From a virus, in the IMG/VR virus record IMGVR_UViG_3300022746_000057, positions 1-21,878 of that record: DNA of 21,878 nt. One strand, given 5' to 3'. A model generated the notes under the pieces. That model worked only from the letters and a program-made list of their open reading frames with translations. It ran no database searches and was not told the origin of the DNA. The position numbers were made by a program, and so were the translations under genes. Within the stretch, counting starts at the first letter, position 1. Each line of letters begins with the position of its first letter. Positions 3 to 21,876 of this stretch are shown here, piece after piece.

Positions 3-2921
3 ATTTCTCTGGCAGAGAACCCACGCACATACAACCGCATCTTGTTTAGCGACAAGAACATCTTCCGCGTTGGCAGCCAAGTGGCCGCAGATCGTCAGCG
101 CATGCGCTTCGGTAAAGAAGCCTCGCAACCCGCTGGTGTTTTCGCCAAGGCTGGCGAGTGGCTGGACGCCGCGATCACTAGCCCCAAGGAAACCCTGCAC
201 AAGCTGAAGCTGGGCTTCTTGACCCTAGACCAACTGGCTGAACTGGACAAGTCCCCCGGCCAAGTGGTTCGCGCTTACGCAGATGTGTCTATTGCCATGC
301 AGATGATGTCCAAAGACATGGTGGATAAGGCTGTCAAGATTGACCATTTGTGGGCAAAGCTGGACCCCAAAGAAGCCAAGCGTCTGTCTGAGACTATGCG
401 CTCCGCCACGCGTGCGCAATACGATCCTGCTTTGAGCGTTGCCGCTGCTAACGGAACGGAGCAAGAAGTCAAAGACCTGTACGATGGCCTGACTAACAGT
501 GGCCGGGACGTCTACGCCAAAGTCAAAAAGTATTATGAAGATGCGTTTGCTACGCGTCTGGCCATCATGGAAGAGGCTGCTGCTAAGCTGGGCGGTAAAG
601 AGCTCAAGGAAATCCAAGAGCTGTACTCCAAGCTCAAGGGCCCGTACTTCCCGCTGGGTCGCACTGGTAAATACTACGCTGTGGGCATGTCCCCCCGTGT
701 GGCAGAGTTGATGGCTAAGAAAGAAGACTCCGGTCTCTCCAGCTCTGAGACAACTGAATTGGCTGCGCTGCGCAAGCAAGCTGACCAATATAAGACCAGC
801 TCGTTCAACACTCTGTATGAGGCCAAGAAAGCCGCTGAGCAGTTCAAAGAGTCCATGGGCGACAGCTACTACAAAGAAGTAGACATTGAAAAGACCTTGG
901 CCTCCACTACGACCAAGCTGCCTAACTTCGCCAAGATGGAAGAGTACATCACTAGCCAGATTGGCGGCGACACGCAAGCGCAAGTCAAGAGCATGCTGAA
1001 CCAGATGATGTTTGACATGTTGCCAGAGCACCATGCTTTGAAGAATCAGATGCAGCGTGAGGGTGTGTACGGCGAGAACGAGGATATGCGACAAGTGTTC
1101 GCAAGCACCTCTATTAGCCAATCACACTACATCAGCCGCCTGAAGTTCAGTAATGATCTGAATGTAGCCATGGCTAATATTGGCAAAGCAGCGCGTCGTG
1201 ATAACGAGATGCAACAGATCAAGAATGAGCTGAAGCTGCGTACAAAGTTGTCCATGGACAACACTCAGTCTGCTCTGACCGATGCAATGGTTAACGCCAG
1301 CTACTTTGCCCACCTTGGTTTGTCTCCAGCGTTCTTGCTGACCAACATGACTCAGGTGCCAATGATTACGGCCCCTTGGCTGGGTGCACGTCACGGCATG
1401 GGTGCTACTAAACGCGCTATGGCCATGGCTTTGGCCGACACTGCCAAGATCATCAAGTCCACTTACAAGGACGGTGACTGGCGTAGCGAGTTGAACTGGA
1501 ACAACCTGTTCCCAGCAGGCTCCAATGAAGATCGTATGTTCCGTGACTTGCTCGACCGCAACGTGCTGGACATCACTATGGAGCATGACTTGGCCGCTGT
1601 GGCTTCTGCACAGAAGGGCATCTTTGACGACAAGATTTCCAAGGCTACTGGCGGCAAGCTCGGTGGTATGAGCGACGTGGTCAAACTGGTGAATACACCA
1701 GTGCGTATCACTGAGTTGGCCAACCGTGCTGTTACTGCGTTGTCTGCCTATCGCTTGAAGATGGAATCCTTGAAGTCTGCTCCTATGACCGAGGAAGAGC
1801 GCCACACGGCTGCCGTGAATTACGCTGCTCGTACTGTGTCCGAGACTCAGTTGAACTATTCTGAGTTGAACGCACCACGCCACATGCGCCAAGTGTTTGG
1901 CTCAAAGCCATTGGCCAAGATGATTTTCCAGTTCCGCAAGTACCAACAAGGTATGTTGTATTTGATTGCCAAGAACATCTCCGATGCTCTGCCCGGCAGC
2001 AAGGCAACTGCGGAAGACCGCCGCATCGCTCGCCGCACTATCGCTGGTTTGTACATGACTACTGGCTTGATGGCTGGTACGACTGGCATGCCTCTGATGG
2101 GTACAGTGGGCGTGGCTGGTATCGCTAACCTGATCGCCGCTGCCTTCGGTGACGACGATGAGCCATGGGACTTCGAAACTGAGTACCGCAACTTCTTGGC
2201 CGACTGGCTGGGTAAGGACATGGCTTTGTTGGTGGCCAAGGGTGTACCTGCGGCTCTCGGCGCTGACTTGTCTCAGCGTGTTGGTATGGCCGATATTGCT
2301 AACCCGATTCCCTTCGTTCAACGAGGCGCTACTGGGCAGTCCACTGTGGCTAACGCGCTCTACGCTACGCTCGGTGCTCCCGTAGGTATGGTGGGCTCAA
2401 TGTATGACGGCATCGTGGCCATGGCCAACGGTGATGTGATGAAGGGTATGGAGAAGGTCATCCCAGTCAAGGCTGTGAAGGACGCACTGCGCACGTATCG
2501 CTATGCCGATGAAGGCATGACTGACAAGCGCGGTAACGTAATCCTGCCGCCAGAGAAGTTCGACGCATGGGACTTGACACTGCGCGGTATGGGCTTCACA
2601 CCCACCAAGGAATCAGAGTACTACGCGGCCAATGCAGCAATGCAAGAAGCCAAGATGGCTGCCACTGACGTGCGCACTCGCCTGTTGCGCGAATACTCTG
2701 AGGCTAAGATGAAGGGTGAGCCAACCACTGACGTCGACGCCGAGATCGCTGATTTCAACGAGCGCCACCCAGAGAAGACCGTGAAGATCGATATGTCCAC
2801 AAAACTGAAAGCAGTTCAGGCTCGCCGTAAAATGGCAACCGAACGCAATGAGGCTGGCTTACGTATCGGTAAACGCGAGAAACCTTTTGCTGACCAAGCA
2901 CGATTCGCAACAGAGGAATAA
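3..2921 (+). CDS. C-terminal part of giant PLxRFG-type phage protein (5' partial)
   Basis: The frame is open to the left edge: codons before the TTG at 42 read ISLAENPRTYNRI, so the true start lies outside and 972 residues are visible. I recognise the layout of the PLxRFG domain, the roughly 700-residue C-terminal tail of very large phage proteins. The signature lies at 651-668 as PLGRTG within GPYFPLGRTGKYY, a variant of PLxRFG. Further on are the stretch FGSKPLAKMIFQFRKYQQ (about 1900-1953), a Gly/Met-rich hydrophobic segment that may cross or enter a membrane (about 2040-2150), and a charged helical C-terminus. Family members are often polyvalent proteins thought to be packaged with or injected alongside phage DNA; that role is inferred here. 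No catalytic domain is visible in this part, and enzymatic domains may lie upstream. TTG at 42 is not a credible start. Confidence 0.8.
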   Translation: MSLAENPRTYNRILFSDKNIFRVGSQVAADRQRMRFGKEASQPAGVFAKAGEWLDAAITSPKETLHKLKLGFLTLDQLAELDKSPGQVVRAYADVSIAMQMMSKDMVDKAVKIDHLWAKLDPKEAKRLSETMRSATRAQYDPALSVAAANGTEQEVKDLYDGLTNSGRDVYAKVKKYYEDAFATRLAIMEEAAAKLGGKELKEIQELYSKLKGPYFPLGRTGKYYAVGMSPRVAELMAKKEDSGLSSSETTELAALRKQADQYKTSSFNTLYEAKKAAEQFKESMGDSYYKEVDIEKTLASTTTKLPNFAKMEEYITSQIGGDTQAQVKSMLNQMMFDMLPEHHALKNQMQREGVYGENEDMRQVFASTSISQSHYISRLKFSNDLNVAMANIGKAARRDNEMQQIKNELKLRTKLSMDNTQSALTDAMVNASYFAHLGLSPAFLLTNMTQVPMITAPWLGARHGMGATKRAMAMALADTAKIIKSTYKDGDWRSELNWNNLFPAGSNEDRMFRDLLDRNVLDITMEHDLAAVASAQKGIFDDKISKATGGKLGGMSDVVKLVNTPVRITELANRAVTALSAYRLKMESLKSAPMTEEERHTAAVNYAARTVSETQLNYSELNAPRHMRQVFGSKPLAKMIFQFRKYQQGMLYLIAKNISDALPGSKATAEDRRIARRTIAGLYMTTGLMAGTTGMPLMGTVGVAGIANLIAAAFGDDDEPWDFETEYRNFLADWLGKDMALLVAKGVPAALGADLSQRVGMADIANPIPFVQRGATGQSTVANALYATLGAPVGMVGSMYDGIVAMANGDVMKGMEKVIPVKAVKDALRTYRYADEGMTDKRGNVILPPEKFDAWDLTLRGMGFTPTKESEYYAANAAMQEAKMAATDVRTRLLREYSEAKMKGEPTTDVDAEIADFNERHPEKTVKIDMSTKLKAVQARRKMATERNEAGLRIGKREKPFADQARFATEE

Positions 2922-3887: not shown

Positions 3888-6881
3888 TTACTGGCCAGCG
3901 GATGATACCGCAGCAGTCTCTAAACTGACAACCGTCGGGCCACTTGTTTTATCAACAGCGCCTTCCATAGCAGCGAAGTCGAAGCAATAGCAGACGCATG
4001 CGCCTGTCGAGTGGGCAGTTCCACGACCGATGTTGAACCGCTCAGAGCTCTTGCCAACCCACTTCTTCTCCTGTGCAAACTTCAGCACCTCTTTGGGCTC
4101 CATACGATTCTTGGCGCACCAGTCGTAGAAGTCCTTCTTGGCGATGAACAGCTTGCCAACCAGCTTGGGGTCAACAGTCTCACCAGAGTTCTTGTTGGGT
4201 GAACCCAGTATGCGACGACCAACCGCCACGCCGTTGATACGGGACAAAGACTCCTCAGGGCCACGAGCATCAGCACGGGTATCGCGGTAGCCTACGGTCA
4301 CCAAGATGCGGCTAGACATCTCACGGATCATGCGGCTGATACCTTCGGCTGGGTCAGTCACGTTGCCCTTGGACACCGCAGCAGTCAAGTCAGTCATCAA
4401 CGTAACGGTGAAGTCCTCGAGCTTTTGGAAGTCGAAGTCCACGATGTTATGGTCGATCAAAATCTTGGCCGCCACCAATGTGCAAGTCGCATGGCTACGG
4501 AAGAAACGATACTCAGACTGCGGCATCAAGCGGCTCATCTTGTTCTCGATCTTGGCGTAGAGGTCAGCGACTTCCTGCTGGTGCGTCACGATGTACTTCA
4601 CGAACTCATGACCAGCGTTGCCCATGTTTTCACGCATGGTGTCGATAGCGTTGGATACTTCAACCGCTGGGTCAATGATGGGCACGTTGTACGTGGCGAA
4701 GTTAATGCCGATCATACGAACTGCCTCAGCTTGCGTATTGGCGTTGTGGCCAGCCAGCTTGGAGTGCATGTCTTCGTTGGCAGTTAAACCAACCACAGTC
4801 TTCCAAGTGTGCTGCTCCGCGAAGCCAACCTTACCGCCAGCAGAAGTCAGACGGGCACGGTCAGTACCTTGAGATGTTGTGTAGGCCATAGCAGAAACTT
4901 CCGCTGCGTCCATGTCAGTCATCTCGTCAAACACCACGGGGATGTTCTTGTGTGCACCGACGATTGCCCACCGCGCATTGCGAGTCGCACCTTCCTTACC
5001 AGCGAAGATCATCTTGTTGGCATCGCAGATACCGTACAGCGCAGAACGCCACACAGAAGTCTTGCCTTTGCCAGACGCACCAGAGTTCACTGCGACGAGG
5101 GCACCGTTATAACTATCTTCTCCGAATGGGGTGATGAGTGAACCGTACACATTGCAGAATACGTATTGGGCAGCCTGACTGTTTTCTCGGTTGTAGATGT
5201 AGTTAACAGCAGCGGAATAAGCAGCAAGAGAGCCACGAGGTTCAGGATAAGCAGCGCGGTGATCTGCGGCAGCGCCACCGATAAACACTTTGCGAATTGA
5301 ACCATCTTGGTGATAGAGCCTGTCTCCAAGTAGCACCCCACTCATGTTGTCGCGCCAGCCAAACGCAGTCAGTGTGTCGGTTTCACGTTGCTCGGCCATC
5401 AGCTTGTGAATTGAGTCGCGGATGTACGCGGTCATGTGCATCGTTGAGTCCTTGTTGTTGGATGGCATCAGCTCATACTTAGACAATGCTTTGAGCAAGT
5501 CGGTAGAAGAGGCCAATGCAGAGGTGTCCACCTCGAAGTCACGAACCCGTTGGTCAGGCAAGTGCATGCGGATAGTGAACGCAAAAGCGCCATCAGATTT
5601 TTTGATCCGTTGGATTGGGTAGAACAGCGTACGGCAGAACGTGTATGGCTGCATCACACCGTCTTTGTCACGGATGAAACGCAGCATGTGCCCAGTCTGG
5701 TACTCATAACCCTCGGGCATTGGAGGCACAGTGGCTTCCAACACTTGGTCAGGCTTAGCCTCGTCGATTACTTCGACAACTGATTCTGCTGGTTCAGGCA
5801 GAAGTCGTCCCAGCACGATTGGTGATTTGATGTTTCCTTTATGAACACAGCCTTCGCAGGCGGTCGGGTTGCAGCGCTGAAAATATTCACAAGTAGCAGG
5901 GCCACTATCCCAAGTGTGATAACGGGTATCAACATCGACATTAGAGTGGCCAGTAGCGGCCCGCAGTTCGCTCCACTCATGTGCCAGAGGTTCTCCCTCG
6001 ACACAGTGCTTGATGATCCCAATGATGCCGCGCCATGATTCATAGTCAACGTCTCCTTTGGTGTCACGCATCTTGCCAACTTGAGCGCAGTGGTTTGCGA
6101 CCTCTTGGGCAGATGATTCAATTTGGGGGCCGAGGTGGCCGATCAGGTCATCGTTCAAGCCTTCCACGGGGGTGCGGCTAATCAGTTGCTGAGGGATGAC
6201 GTCGTACTTGGCAACAGCCGCTTGGACTGCTGCGTGAAAATCTTTGGGGTTTACAGCTACGCCTTCGCGTATGACTTTTACTTGACGGGGGTCTCGTCCG
6301 GGCTTTCTGTTATGGCTTCCAACTGGTCGGAGTACTGACGATAAGTCGGCAGTACGAGTAGGGTCAACCAAAAGACCAGCAGCTGCCAGACTGGACTTGA
6401 AACCACTGGCCATAGTTCGCCATGAATTTGGGCCAATAGACTGCGTGAGGGGCCAGTAACAGTGAATACCACCTCCAGAATCGACGAGCATAGGGTCAGG
6501 GAACCCATGGGCACGACAAAAACCCACAATAGCCACCGCAGCATCTCTCTTTGTTGCGTAACCTTTTCCCTCCAGAGCCTTTGTCTCTCCGCAGTCAATA
6601 TCTGCCCAGAACGCCTTTGCTCGAAACCAATTCGGTTCGCCGCGATATTTTTTCTTAGTCTCTCCGTTGATGAGTACTTCATAGCTTGGCTCCTTGTAAG
6701 CAGCGCATGCGTGATAGACAGTTAAGTTAGTTTGCTTGTCGTAAGAAGCGATGGCCTCAGCCATCAGCTCCAATGATTCATACGCCTTGTGGGCGATGCC
6801 GGGGGTTCCGGCACGACTCAGGCCAACGAACTTATACCCATCTTCCGGCAAGATTGTTTTGAGGAAGGTGAGTGCGTCCAT
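3888..6881 (-). CDS. Primase-helicase: archaeo-eukaryotic primase plus P-loop helicase
   Basis: A 997-residue bifunctional replication protein. The N-terminal primase/polymerase (AEP) domain shows FWADID (D94, D96), SGGGIH (135-140) and RPVGSHNRKPG (185-195), the expected metal-binding and nucleotide-binding motifs. A helical C-terminal primase segment (about 260-350) follows, ending in a cysteine cluster C331, C337, C342, C345 that may bind zinc. The second half is a P-loop ATPase: Walker A SGASGKGKTS (600-609), Walker B VVFDEM (649-654), then a region resembling DUF927/SF3-type phage helicases. It should prime and unwind the phage DNA for the polymerase encoded upstream in the same unit. 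I chose ATG 6881, one base after the preceding stop, over an upstream start at 6926 that has no Shine-Dalgarno and overlaps that gene. It is the last gene before the terminator. Confidence 0.88.
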   Translation of the reverse strand: MDALTFLKTILPEDGYKFVGLSRAGTPGIAHKAYESLELMAEAIASYDKQTNLTVYHACAAYKEPSYEVLINGETKKKYRGEPNWFRAKAFWADIDCGETKALEGKGYATKRDAAVAIVGFCRAHGFPDPMLVDSGGGIHCYWPLTQSIGPNSWRTMASGFKSSLAAAGLLVDPTRTADLSSVLRPVGSHNRKPGRDPRQVKVIREGVAVNPKDFHAAVQAAVAKYDVIPQQLISRTPVEGLNDDLIGHLGPQIESSAQEVANHCAQVGKMRDTKGDVDYESWRGIIGIIKHCVEGEPLAHEWSELRAATGHSNVDVDTRYHTWDSGPATCEYFQRCNPTACEGCVHKGNIKSPIVLGRLLPEPAESVVEVIDEAKPDQVLEATVPPMPEGYEYQTGHMLRFIRDKDGVMQPYTFCRTLFYPIQRIKKSDGAFAFTIRMHLPDQRVRDFEVDTSALASSTDLLKALSKYELMPSNNKDSTMHMTAYIRDSIHKLMAEQRETDTLTAFGWRDNMSGVLLGDRLYHQDGSIRKVFIGGAAADHRAAYPEPRGSLAAYSAAVNYIYNRENSQAAQYVFCNVYGSLITPFGEDSYNGALVAVNSGASGKGKTSVWRSALYGICDANKMIFAGKEGATRNARWAIVGAHKNIPVVFDEMTDMDAAEVSAMAYTTSQGTDRARLTSAGGKVGFAEQHTWKTVVGLTANEDMHSKLAGHNANTQAEAVRMIGINFATYNVPIIDPAVEVSNAIDTMRENMGNAGHEFVKYIVTHQQEVADLYAKIENKMSRLMPQSEYRFFRSHATCTLVAAKILIDHNIVDFDFQKLEDFTVTLMTDLTAAVSKGNVTDPAEGISRMIREMSSRILVTVGYRDTRADARGPEESLSRINGVAVGRRILGSPNKNSGETVDPKLVGKLFIAKKDFYDWCAKNRMEPKEVLKFAQEKKWVGKSSERFNIGRGTAHSTGACVCYCFDFAAMEGAVDKTSGPTVVSLETAAVSSAGQ

Positions 6882-17555: not shown

Positions 17556-18209
17556 TCATACAGTTAGTTTGGATGCGACAGCAGCTGCTGTCAGTTGGTC
17601 GATTGAGATAGACGCCATGATTTCTTCAGCCTTCGATGCCGTCTTCTCGCGCTTGGGGTTGTTGTTCACTCGGTCGATGTACTCATCGCTGATATACAAA
17701 GACAGAGCTGGCCACAGCTTGAGTGCTTCGTTCAAAGACTTAGCAGACTCCAAGAACTGAACAACTTGGCTCTTAATCTCTTTCCACTTGAGGTCAGTCT
17801 CGAGGCAGAACTTGCGGTGTGCGACTGCTTCTTTAGCGATGGGGGGCAACAAGTGGCTGTCCTCGGGAACGGTGATGTTGTGGCCGTAGTAGGAGTCGTG
17901 CTTGGTAATAGGGACTTCGATAGGGTCAACTGTCTCGAACACGAACTCGAAGCTAGAGTTGGTGTCTGCGTTAACAGAGTAAGCGATTCGTGCATTGACA
18001 CGATTGGATGTCTTCTTCCAATCCTCTGGCATCTGGTCACGTAGATGCAAATGGTTCCCCCAGACTAGGAGCTCGAGGTTGGCGTCTGTGGATGGGACAG
18101 TCAGGCGCTCCGCAGGTGCTTTGACAGCATCCTGCTCTTTGTCACGCATCTTGATAATGTTGTTCTGTGTGGAGCTGATAAGCGCGTTGGAAATTGCAAC
18201 GTATGCCAT
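17556..18209 (-). CDS. 217-residue phage protein, possibly Nmad5-like
   Basis: This protein starts MAYVAISNALISSTQNNIIK, has a mixed alpha/beta centre (NADTNSSFEFVFETVDPIEV; LLPPIAKEAVAHRKF), and ends with two helices containing ESAKSLNEALKLWPALSLYI and a basic segment. The C-terminal pattern, a helix and then LxLWPxLxxYI, reminds me of the putative nucleotide-modification-associated family Nmad5, but this is a weak resemblance and I cannot align it here. The start has GAAAG nine bases upstream. It follows a 66-base gap, one of the few in this operon, so it could be the first gene after an internal promoter. Confidence 0.6.
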   Translation of the reverse strand: MAYVAISNALISSTQNNIIKMRDKEQDAVKAPAERLTVPSTDANLELLVWGNHLHLRDQMPEDWKKTSNRVNARIAYSVNADTNSSFEFVFETVDPIEVPITKHDSYYGHNITVPEDSHLLPPIAKEAVAHRKFCLETDLKWKEIKSQVVQFLESAKSLNEALKLWPALSLYISDEYIDRVNNNPKREKTASKAEEIMASISIDQLTAAAVASKLTV

Positions 18210-18275: not shown

Positions 18276-19193
18276 TCATGCTGCCTCCACGTGGTCATAA
18301 CCTTCAGTTGTTTCGTAGATGTGTTTGCGCAGTGCCTTCATGCCGTTTTCAAGAACCCGCTCACGCATGATTCGGCGCAGCTCGTCGTCAGTACGAACCA
18401 CATACGACCCATCCCTCCACACATGGGTGTCAGGCTTGAGCGTCATACGCATCCCATGCCCCAGCACAGCCATTGCGTCGTCACCCGTTGGGTTCTTGTA
18501 GTCAATGTCCTTGAGCTGCTTGACGATGGGAGGGGAGTACCAACCACGGTTGAGCTTGTTATCAATGTGCTCGTCAAAACCAACACGCACCATGACCATG
18601 GCCAGCTTACGGATGACTGCGGTGTTCGCCTTGGTGGTTTGGATTGCTTCGTTCTTCACGACTCTTTTTACGTCCTTAGGTGGGTTGAGGCACTCGACGA
18701 GGCCTAACTTGGTGCTGACAGCGCGGAACTGCGTACCTGCTTTATAGGGAATGGTTTTGGTGCTGGTGTTCGCGCACCACGCTTGCTTCGTCCACCCATG
18801 CTTGCCATAGAAGCGGCTCGACACTCGGATAGCCATATCCTTATTCCTGTGGTGTGCCGTGTCGGAGAAGACGTCGAACCCAGTAATGTCTTGCAGCCGA
18901 TTGCGAATCGTCATGTGATGCACACTAGGCCATGCCTTTTCTTCGGGGGCAAGGAGAGTCACCACGTCATCTGGTGTGATGCTGACCAATGGAGTCGCGT
19001 CGCGTGCATCACTACGCTTGTACATGTTGGTCTTCTTGTCCAGCTCCCAGTTGAATTGCACGTACTTGAATGTGAACGTACCGTCATCTGCTTTAGTGAG
19101 ATGCGTGTCTGCCTTGTATGCCTTGTACTCTCTGGTCTTGCGACGTGTATCGAAGATTGCTTGTGCCCATTTGTAAGTAAGTGGTGCGCCCAT
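18276..19193 (-). CDS. Unrecognised 305-residue protein
   Basis: The largest unknown gene of the window, with a strong Shine-Dalgarno (TAGGAG, spacing 8). It begins MGAPLTYKWAQAIFDTRRKT and has basic segments throughout (KDVKRVVKNEAIQTTKANTA). A cluster of His and aromatic residues lies near the middle (PSVHHMTIRNRL; DTAHHRNKDMAIRVSSRFYG), and the C-terminal helix is charged (DDELRRIMRERVLENGMKAL). No catalytic motif or membrane segment is clear. The basic character and soluble fold suggest nucleic-acid contact, but no function can be assigned. It is preceded closely by an 86-residue gene and followed by a 66-base gap. Confidence 0.7.
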   Translation of the reverse strand: MGAPLTYKWAQAIFDTRRKTREYKAYKADTHLTKADDGTFTFKYVQFNWELDKKTNMYKRSDARDATPLVSITPDDVVTLLAPEEKAWPSVHHMTIRNRLQDITGFDVFSDTAHHRNKDMAIRVSSRFYGKHGWTKQAWCANTSTKTIPYKAGTQFRAVSTKLGLVECLNPPKDVKRVVKNEAIQTTKANTAVIRKLAMVMVRVGFDEHIDNKLNRGWYSPPIVKQLKDIDYKNPTGDDAMAVLGHGMRMTLKPDTHVWRDGSYVVRTDDELRRIMRERVLENGMKALRKHIYETTEGYDHVEAA

Positions 19194-19464: not shown

Positions 19465-19675
19465 ACGCTATCCTTGCTTCAGGGTATGTCTCGTCTATCC
19501 AGTCGATGTAGTCTTGAAGCTCTGTGGCTTGGTCTTCGAGGTTGCCGATCTCGTTCTGCAATCCGTCAATCTCGTCGTCCTGCGTGTTGATCTTTTTTTC
19601 TAACCTACTGATTTCAAACCCTGCGTCCTCAAGATCGTTTTCAAGTTGGTCGATCTCACTTGCTAGTCTTGCCAT
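19430..19675 (-). CDS. 81-residue coiled-coil protein
   Basis: Residues 1-65 form an almost uninterrupted acidic coiled coil (MARLASEIDQLENDLEDAGF; LEKKINTQDDEIDGLQNEI), followed by a short DYIDWIDETYPEARIAYEA segment. GAGGAG with good spacing precedes the ATG, which lies 20 bases inside the preceding gene. Small proteins of this type occur in many phages as scaffolding, spanin-like or regulatory helpers. No signal peptide or membrane segment is seen, which argues against a spanin. Confidence 0.7.
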   Translation of the reverse strand: MARLASEIDQLENDLEDAGFEISRLEKKINTQDDEIDGLQNEIGNLEDQATELQDYIDWIDETYPEARIAYEAKQRLDQAA

Positions 19676-19928
19676 TTATCATCTCCTCAAGTACTGCTTT
19701 GTCCATTGCTATCTGAAGTTCCTGTGCTTTCTTGTACATGACTTGGGCTGTTACGCTTGCGCCGTAATAATTTGCTTGCCTTCGATCAAACAACACGTTC
19801 CGGTGATAGTGAAATAGGTCGTCATAGCTCATGCGTCCCCACCCGTCAGGCGGTTCAACTCCATCGAGCTTCATCTCGACTAGCTTGGCTATCTTGCGCC
19901 GTCGCTTCTCTGCTCTGGTCATCTTCAT
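19656..19928 (-). CDS. Unrecognised 90-residue basic protein
   Basis: I start at ATG 19928, which overlaps the preceding stop as ATGA and has AAGGA nine bases upstream; the frame is open ten codons more. The N-terminus is very basic (MKMTRAEKRRRKIAKLVEMK), then comes DGWGRMSYDDLFHYHRNVLF and a C-terminal helix (AQELQIAMDKAVLEEMING). A nucleic-acid-binding N-terminus is plausible. No family is recognised. Confidence 0.6.
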   Translation of the reverse strand: MKMTRAEKRRRKIAKLVEMKLDGVEPPDGWGRMSYDDLFHYHRNVLFDRRQANYYGASVTAQVMYKKAQELQIAMDKAVLEEMINGKTSK

Positions 19929-20146
19929 TGGCTCATCCTTATCATTGCGATTGCCCATGCCTTGGCTTCTTCGAGCTCAGTGTCGGGCCAATTGCTCTCT
20001 TGCCACTTAAAACCACGTTTGCTGTTTGGCCTCCATGACAATCTCCAGCCTATTGGTGTGTGCTTGACTTGTGCGAGTACCATGTTGCTTTCATCTTCGC
20101 AGCATACCCACTGAAATTCCCTGTGCTCAAACCATTCGAGTTGCAT
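19925..20146 (-). CDS. Small paralogue 1 (73 residues) of a tandem family
   Basis: It starts MQLEWFEHREFQWVCCEDES at ATG 20146, overlapping the preceding stop as TGATG, with AAAGGA upstream. The N-terminal half is Trp-rich and beta-like (GWRLSWRPNSKRGFKW). The C-terminus, DTELEEAKAWAIAMIRMSQ, matches the ends of the three genes upstream in pattern (D-x-x-EA-x-A-a-a). I read the four as diverged tandem duplicates. The function is unknown. Confidence 0.65.
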   Translation of the reverse strand: MQLEWFEHREFQWVCCEDESNMVLAQVKHTPIGWRLSWRPNSKRGFKWQESNWPDTELEEAKAWAIAMIRMSQ

Positions 20147-20388
20147 CACTCCATCCTTTCACATGCTGTTACCCATGCTATGGCTTCGTCCTTGGTGTCG
20201 AACACCATGCGCTGCTTCGTGGTGTGTGACCATGCTTGGTAGTCATGCACTCGGTCGGCGAAGTGTCGTCTCGCCCGAAAAACTCTATGCACCTCGCCGA
20301 CCTTGCGTCTGCTGTTGCCAGTGACTCGTAGGTACTCCCAGCGTTGGGTGTCATAGATTGCGCTGTCCCATACGTAACTAGAATTCAT
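20146..20388 (-). CDS. Small paralogue 2 (80 residues) of a tandem family
   Basis: It begins MNSSYVWDSAIYDTQRWEYL at ATG 20388, overlapping the preceding stop as ATGA. A basic strand-rich middle (NSRRKVGEVHRVFRARRHF) leads to the family C-terminus VFDTKDEAIAWVTACERME. It is the most divergent in the N-terminal half and the most basic of the four. The function is unknown. Confidence 0.6.
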   Translation of the reverse strand: MNSSYVWDSAIYDTQRWEYLRVTGNSRRKVGEVHRVFRARRHFADRVHDYQAWSHTTKQRMVFDTKDEAIAWVTACERME

Positions 20389-20630
20389 AGCCGCACCATA
20401 GCGATAGCAAACGCTTTAGCTTCGTCCTCTGTGTCGAACCGCCGTACTGGGCCTTTGTCTAGACTTTCCACTTTGAACCTCCACAGTTTCATTGGTTGCT
20501 TGGTCTCACATAACTCAAGGTGCACAGTTGCCAAGATTCGCCACGAAGACCATGTACTGTCCTCCACGTCGTATAGCCGCCAGCCCCCAAGCATGCCGTC
20601 TCTTATGAATGTGCGCCACTCTAGTTGCAT
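20385..20630 (-). CDS. Small paralogue 3 (81 residues) of a tandem family
   Basis: I start at ATG 20630 (MQLEWRTFIRDGMLGGWRLY) because paralogue 1 opens with the same MQLEW and GGAG lies upstream; the frame is open ten codons further into the preceding gene. A Trp-rich middle (TWSSWRILATVHLELCE) is followed by the family C-terminus VRRFDTEDEAKAFAIAMVRL. It overlaps the preceding gene by 10 bases. The function is unknown. Confidence 0.65.
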   Translation of the reverse strand: MQLEWRTFIRDGMLGGWRLYDVEDSTWSSWRILATVHLELCETKQPMKLWRFKVESLDKGPVRRFDTEDEAKAFAIAMVRL

Positions 20631-20863
20631 GATGCTTTCTCCAAGATGTAGAGAGTCCACAGGTATGCTTTGGCTTCCTCCACATCAGTGAAGTACCGAA
20701 GCCCTCTACCCATGGACAGGTCTGCGTAGTAAGTGCCGAGCTCATCACTGACACAGACGACTTCGCCAACGATTCTGCGGTCATACTCTTCATCACACAG
20801 ATACCATTGAACGAAGCCAGCCGTGTCCCGAGTAGCTTCTTGCGTCGCTACCCAGTGTGTCAC
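20621..20863 (-). CDS. Small paralogue 4 (80 residues) of a tandem family
   Basis: It starts at GTG 20863, which overlaps the stop of the metallopeptidase gene as GTGA (MTHWVATQEATRDTAGFVQW). The middle has alternating hydrophobic strands (RRIVGEVVCVSDELGTYYAD), and the end, RYFTDVEEAKAYLWTLYILE, fits the family C-terminal pattern. It is directly coupled to the metallopeptidase/VWA gene, so the array may work with that protein or be cotranscribed only. The function is unknown. Confidence 0.6.
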   Translation of the reverse strand: MTHWVATQEATRDTAGFVQWYLCDEEYDRRIVGEVVCVSDELGTYYADLSMGRGLRYFTDVEEAKAYLWTLYILEKASCN

Positions 20864-21876
20864 TGCTCTAACTCGAAGTGAATGTTCTCACCCCATGGTG
20901 CGTCGACATCGCTACTGATACACCACACGACTGGATAGCCGGGGTCTTCGCCGAAGCCTGTGTAGCCGTCAGTCAAGCACACGAACACCTGAGGCTCGAT
21001 ACCCTGCTTGGCACAGAAGTCGAAACCTGCTGGCATGTCAGTGCCACCACCTGAGTAGAACTCGAGGCCAACTGCTTCACCACAGTCGAACTCAACGTGC
21101 TTCTGGACTTCAGTGTCGGTGTACAACACATGAACTTTCTCAGGGCGGCATTGCTCGATGATGCGGGACAAGTGACCGTTGTAATAGTCCAGCTCCTTCT
21201 TGCTGATAGAACCAGACACGTCGACCTGAACAACAAGCTCACCCATCTGTGGCAACTTGTCTACGCTTGGCAGATAGTGGTCAACGAAGCGACGGTTAGG
21301 ACGACGCCAGCTCTGACCCTGTGCGACACATGCAGTCATATGCTTCTCGAGAATCTCATACCAAGGAGTCTTGACCTCGAGCAAGTTGGCAACCAACTCG
21401 GCTAGCTTACCGGACAGCTTGCCACGCATCTTGGCTGCTTGCGCTGCCTCAGCGATCTCGACTTTGATCTGGCCTTCGATCTCCTTGATCTCGTCAGGTG
21501 TCAGCGGCTTGCCCTGACCATCAGCACCGATGCCATAGATAACGTCATCACCTAAGCCGTTGTCACCGTGGTCGTCAGGCAACTCGTCATAGATAGTCTC
21601 GGTCGTCTTGTCTTTGGAGCCAGCCATGTTGACTGTGTTGGGGATACGTTGGCCTACGTTGCTGTCGTCGAGTGTGTCGTTAATCCAAGCATCGCCTGCG
21701 TAGTTCCACTTCTTGTGGTTGCGAGCACCCTTACGGATTGCATGCTGGCCGATGACGTGGCCTACCTCGTGGCACAAGCCCCACACAATCTGAGGCACAG
21801 TCAACGACTCGATGAAGTCATTGTTGTAATAGATGTTGGCACGGGCATCGACTGCCAGTGTTGGGATGCTGTTGTC
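20860..21876 (-). CDS. Zinc metallopeptidase-like/VWA domain protein (5' partial)
   Basis: The gene runs off the right edge; 338 residues are visible. It opens in PTLAVDARANIYYNNDFIES and continues to VWGLCHEVGHVI, an HExxH zinc-protease motif (residues 36-40), as in DUF2201-type putative metallopeptidases. A Gly/Asp-rich linker and a helical region (EIKEIEGQIKVEIAEAAQAA) lead to a VWA-like domain with MIDAS elements DVSGS (219-223), GGGTD (276-280) and LTDG (301-304). Bacterial relatives pair with a MoxR-type AAA ATPase, so such a gene may lie beyond the right edge. In a phage it may modify or remodel a host or phage complex; the substrate is unknown. Its stop overlaps the first small paralogue start as GTGA. 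Confidence 0.85.
   Translation of the reverse strand, partial: DNSIPTLAVDARANIYYNNDFIESLTVPQIVWGLCHEVGHVIGQHAIRKGARNHKKWNYAGDAWINDTLDDSNVGQRIPNTVNMAGSKDKTTETIYDELPDDHGDNGLGDDVIYGIGADGQGKPLTPDEIKEIEGQIKVEIAEAAQAAKMRGKLSGKLAELVANLLEVKTPWYEILEKHMTACVAQGQSWRRPNRRFVDHYLPSVDKLPQMGELVVQVDVSGSISKKELDYYNGHLSRIIEQCRPEKVHVLYTDTEVQKHVEFDCGEAVGLEFYSGGGTDMPAGFDFCAKQGIEPQVFVCLTDGYTGFGEDPGYPVVWCISSDVDAPWGENIHFELEQ

Follow-up and report, generated by a model that had tools for sequence, protein, structure and literature searches.

We found that four consecutive small genes in a viral DNA fragment, units A, B, C and D, are diverged homologues of one family, and that the number of such units differs among related phages. 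From the analysis as a whole, the units are putative interchangeable modules that each bind a different host target and act in host takeover or counter-defence, a reading for which we judge the chances to be about even. The window, which is the whole IMG/VR virus fragment of 21.9 kb, carries on its minus strand a block of replication and small genes, including those for a primase/helicase-like protein, an SNF2-type helicase, a PD-(D/E)XK exonuclease and a family A DNA polymerase. The sequence-only reading had placed four coupled genes of 73–81 residues at 19925–20863, which was confirmed, and all four are overlapping minus-strand genes (Table 1). Promoters and terminators were predicted within the array in numbers equal to those in shuffled sequences.

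Table 1. Coordinates of the array, its neighbours and other features mentioned in the text (positions of the window unless a locus is named)
Feature	Coordinates	Strand	Description	Overlap
VWA gene	20860..21876	−	metallopeptidase-VWA protein (DUF2201-type, phrog_1314, N4 gp25-like), directly upstream of unit A; 5′ end outside window	
Unit A	20621..20863	−	80 aa, GTG start, pI 4.4	4 nt with VWA stop
Unit B	20385..20630	−	81 aa, MQLEW start, pI 6.6	10 nt with A
Helix-start segment of B (FDTEDEAKA)	20413..20439	−	27 nt, 85% DNA identity to C segment 20177–20203	
Unit C	20146..20388	−	80 aa, pI 9.4	4 nt with B
Unit D	19925..20146	−	73 aa, MQLEW start, pI 5.6	1 nt with C; last 11 codons overlap next gene
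Gene downstream of D	19656..19958	−	100 aa	34 nt with D
305-aa protein	18276–19193		conserved protein	
217-aa protein	17556–18209		MAYVAIS...	
972-aa open frame	3–2921			
Cys-rich array, L096	1286–2290		small genes ahead of MoxR gene	
Cys-rich array, L100	130–973		small genes ahead of MoxR gene	

The relationship of the four units was examined by pairwise comparison of their orthologue alignments using hhalign, which gave P values of about 1e-7 (B–D), 3e-5 (A–C), 6e-5 (B–C), 2e-4 (C–D), 0.002 (A–B) and 0.003 (A–D). As a control, the small genes of related phages were clustered and all profile pairs were run. All 80 comparisons of the four with small genes unrelated to them gave higher values (0.025 at the lowest) than the six within the four (Mann–Whitney p = 2e-5), which confirms the earlier suggestion that these are diverged paralogues. 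When jackhmmer was run from each of the four seeds against a set of 2,431 short ORFs drawn from every frame at an inclusion E of 0.01, 45–49 ORFs were recovered, 44 of which were common to all four. With reversed decoys and a cut-off of 0.005 no decoy was included and seed D kept only its own three orthologues, while 39 of 40 shuffled seeds drew no ORF and the remaining one drew 23. Because seed D stayed with its orthologues and one shuffled seed gave 23 ORFs, the iterative search does not settle the question by itself, and we rely more on the profile control.

The sequence signal was strongest in the C-terminal third, where the family shares the motif F-x-(T/S)-x-x-E-A-K-A-W; a Trp at the start of the sheet is also conserved. 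The units had been described as closing with a helix that ends in D-x-x-EA-x-A. The shared motif proved real, but this exact spacing was found in A only, being three residues in B and C and four in D, and the motif opens the C-terminal helix. A Trp-rich, strand-like first half had likewise been proposed. Trp makes up 6.1% of the four units compared to 1.3% of the window's large genes (about 4.5-fold enrichment; Fisher p = 5e-7) and strands were modelled in B and C, but the first halves are weakly alike in sequence. With the helix removed, they were slightly above background (p = 0.007 for the four, p = 2e-7 for ten family clusters), so the case for kinship of the first halves rests mainly on predicted structure.

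Unit B was modelled with AlphaFold2 on a 41-member family alignment (mean pLDDT 82.9) and unit C with AlphaFold from six C orthologues only (pLDDT 88.9). The B model contained strands at residues 2–10, 13–22, 30–41, 47–54 and 63–65 followed by a helix at 68–80, and the C model strands at 3–9, 16–23, 26–37, 48–54 and 59–63 followed by a helix at 66–78. The two models thus agree in order and spacing, five strands and then the helix, although the C alignment held no A, B or D sequences, and this common order is what the paralogue proposal had led one to expect of these two units. In the models the C-terminal helix opens with F-x-T-x-x-E-A-K-A-W. Among C orthologues, pairwise identity was 69% in the helix, 45% in the strands and 39% in the loops. 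Profiles and the models of B and C show a predicted single-domain fold of about 60–95 residues, in which an antiparallel sheet is followed by one C-terminal helix.

We then compared the units with known proteins. Searches of A–D against PHROG and Pfam gave no significant match (best E 0.032 in PHROG and 0.14 in Pfam), Pfam and PHROGs gave no consistent match over 41 members, and PADLOC, a library of defence proteins and not of inhibitors, gave none for A–D at E up to 1. A tblastn search of 50,697 phage records with five members (B, D and one from each of three further subgroups) returned no meaningful match. The PDB gave nothing above noise by sequence (best E 0.42), and by fold its best Z, 5.6 for B and 5.0 for C, was no better than that of unrelated rows. 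The strand and helix likeness of B to YkuJ of Bacillus subtilis (2ffg, Z 5.2) and of C to SH2 domains (for example 3gxw, Z 5.0) was loose, with Z at the unrelated-row level, and had no counterpart in sequence similarity. The F-x-T-x-E-A motif had raised the idea of an AP2/integrase-arm DNA-binding domain, which found no Pfam match and no such fold among the PDB rows listed for B and C; that domain has three strands, a helix and a basic DNA-binding face, whereas the B and C models have four to five strands and the pI of the units ranges from 4.4 to 9.4. The best matches among viral models were uncharacterised small phage proteins. Two of these, from Arthrobacter phage Sonali (A0A411CQR4) and BFVD (A0A6J7WY43), likewise have several strands and then a single C-terminal helix and matched unit C with a Foldseek probability of 0.99–1.00 and a query TM-score of 0.56–0.69, but with E-values of 0.05–0.2 and 12–14% identity, values that do not establish homology to the family. 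Sonali gp34 (73 aa), picked by its length as the likely Foldseek match, gave E 3.6 against the family profile and lent no support.

To follow the array in relatives, some 70 related loci were collected via the VWA protein, and the slot between the VWA gene and the conserved downstream genes was read. We found that slots behind VWA proteins 93–95% identical to that of the window held one, two, three, four or five units, so copy number does vary, as had been anticipated. The slot of L100 holds five (an extra unit, A, B, C and D), those of the window and L003 four each, those of L006–L008 three (A, B and C), that of L009 two (A and a C-like unit) and that of L010 a single C-like unit; orthologues of unit A were found in L003, L004/L100 and L006–L009. 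More distant phages have one unit directly after the VWA gene (L015, L042, L045, L050 and L051) or none, and further members lie behind and before the gene for a MoxR-type ATPase (L096, L099 and L100). The 59.6-kb genome of L003 contained nine matches, all within 1.1–8.4 kb (weakest E 4e-4), and three other whole-contig relatives contained four or five each, the weakest of which are doubtful. A further 23 VWA-bearing contigs or phages divided into 11 with one match and 12 with no detectable copy, although contigs may be incomplete. Among the 12 is the cultured Roseobacter phage CRP-7, which carries genes for both MoxR and VWA. In all, the family comprises about 45 members from IMG/VR relatives. 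A host was sought in bacterial genomes via the VWA protein and none was found.

Several other genes in and around these loci were also observed. Ahead of the MoxR gene, L096 and L100 carry a second tandem array of two to three paralogue-like, Cys-rich small genes in a row, whose products have C-x-x-C patterns (CEGC, CVGC and CLGC) and a terminal helix with Y-V-x-x-R/L-L. The VWA protein is labelled 'HNH endonuclease' in phrog_1314 and many GenBank phage records, whereas Pfam assigned its full-length orthologue to DUF2201_N and DUF2201 (E 8e-43 and 1e-20), that is, to a metallopeptidase-VWA protein; by these domain matches the public label is probably wrong. The units had first been taken for early phage proteins, a timing that the analysis does not bear out; in phage N4 the homologues of this VWA gene, the neighbour of the array, are middle transcripts (PMC4193335). 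The gene downstream of unit D co-occurs with D, both being present in the window, L003 and L100 and both absent from L006, L009 and L010, as if the two moved as a pair in the loci compared. In the nearest relatives the 305-aa protein comes after the small-gene block and is 66–72% identical. Many relatives, including distant ones, have a counterpart of the 217-aa protein, a core gene product, on the downstream side of their VWA gene. Neither protein had a match in Pfam or PHROG. The 972-aa open frame matches very large phage proteins (phrog_10089, 'DarB-like antirestriction') at their C-terminal ends, over profile positions 3953–4631 of 4647, and so probably encodes the last part of a giant multi-domain protein.

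We next considered how the units arose. In a maximum-likelihood tree the A, B, C and D groups were separate (support 100/100, 99/96, 95/87 and 100/98), with the deeper forks unresolved. As these orthologue groups are separate and supported, the duplications predate the split of these phages. Recent tandem duplication was ruled out, the sole direct repeat left being the B/C segment in Table 1. Between the window and L003, dS was 0.17 for B, 0.54 for the VWA gene, 0.94 for C and 1.39 for A, and was saturated for D; between the window and L100 it was 0.84 for D and 0.91 for A against 0.32 for B, 0.47 for C and 0.31 for the gene after D. The differing dS of adjacent units indicates separate histories, for which exchange of single units is the simplest explanation, and what has happened recently resembles the gain, loss and swapping of individual units among phages. 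The tandem expansion first proposed accounts for part of this history, its duplications being old. Nucleotide identity was lower inside the units and higher at their borders; this border conservation may come partly from overlapping start and stop codons and reading frames and not from crossover points. Gene-wide dN/dS was about 0.1–0.5, indicating that the proteins are maintained under purifying selection. It gave no gene-wide sign of positive selection, and diversification driven by such selection, as implied by the initial suggestion of rapid adaptation, was not borne out.

The units are kept as translationally overlapping genes, mainly behind MoxR- and VWA-type genes of a podovirus-like phage group. 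For the function that we favour, host-directed binding, the C-terminal helix and the first Trp would hold the scaffold and the variable sheet and loops would bind partners, each unit having a target of its own, in all likelihood a host protein to be inhibited or redirected during infection. The mixed charge of the units, seen in the spread of pI, argues against one common ligand such as DNA. Taken together with the AcrID1-type arrays of varying number, it leads us to regard binding to host targets, counter-defence among them, as the likeliest role. The steady position near the MoxR and VWA genes counts against this reading and fits better with a second one, possible though on balance unlikely, in which the units serve the adjacent MoxR ATPase/VWA-metallopeptidase machine as adaptors or client-specific cofactors and each presents a different client for remodelling or cleavage. 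Copies do lie behind both the VWA gene and the MoxR gene, single copies directly follow the VWA gene in distant clades too, and a part in the assembly of phage virions has been proposed for MoxR–VWA pairs that include a fused metallopeptidase (PMC7824862). However, the absence of a copy from 12 of the 23 additional VWA-bearing records (including CRP-7) speaks against an obligatory role, with a weight limited by fragments, while the clustering may simply reflect tandem origin and the link stems partly from searching loci around the VWA gene.

It appears still less probable that the units are accessory proteins within the phage programme, in transcription, replication or nucleotide metabolism, that were duplicated and lost without adaptive meaning. 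The position of the units inside a one-strand block of replication and small genes, the age of the duplications and a dN/dS below 1 would suit such a role, but the loss of three of the four units where the VWA protein is 93–95% identical, and the differing histories of neighbours, would be unusual for core functions. A rather remote conjecture is a modular scaffold in which as many as nine interchangeable units of one small sheet-plus-helix fold, each exchanged independently, surround the MoxR/VWA-metallopeptidase machine and each unit directs the machine, or acts alone, against a different host protein; if this were true, the exchange of single 240-bp units would let a phage shift the range of its targets. 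Finally, the view that the resemblance is no more than shared composition (Trp and an EA-rich helix) in unrelated small proteins is very improbable, because the clear separation from the 80 unrelated small-gene comparisons and the equal topology of the separately built B and C models outweigh the concentration of most sequence signal in the last 15–25 residues, the weakly similar first halves, the similar layouts of unrelated small phage proteins and the one shuffled seed with 23 matches.

New defence inhibitors and host-takeover proteins come in large part from small variable phage genes, most of which cannot be grouped, being short and diverged. The present family is without a name in the libraries searched and has about 45 members with a defined scaffold and location; the literature on tandem arrays of small phage proteins does not describe it. 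Relatives that differ by single units provide a natural experiment in which host range and defence sensitivity can be compared, and the link to MoxR and VWA, if real, would also give a clue to the targets of that phage machine.

Two known systems bear comparison with the array. The MoxR AAA+/VWA-metallopeptidase pair has a proposed role in virion assembly in jumbo phages (PMC7824862). The array stands behind such a VWA gene, with further copies behind a MoxR-type ATPase gene in relatives (phrog_1297 and phrog_1314 for the pair); however, the pair as described does not include the small proteins, and many phages have the VWA gene without them. The second system is AcrID1, whose paralogues cluster in rudiviruses, with members down to 7.3% identity, an arrangement attributed to duplication and possible functional diversification (PMC11065993). 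AcrID1 belongs to archaeal viruses and has proven anti-CRISPR activity, whereas the phage array is likened to it by arrangement alone, which is not proof of membership. In that arrangement the two agree, as the AcrID1 clusters of Icerudivirus (SIRV1–3) are also made of close-set, very diverged small viral paralogues whose number varies per genome.
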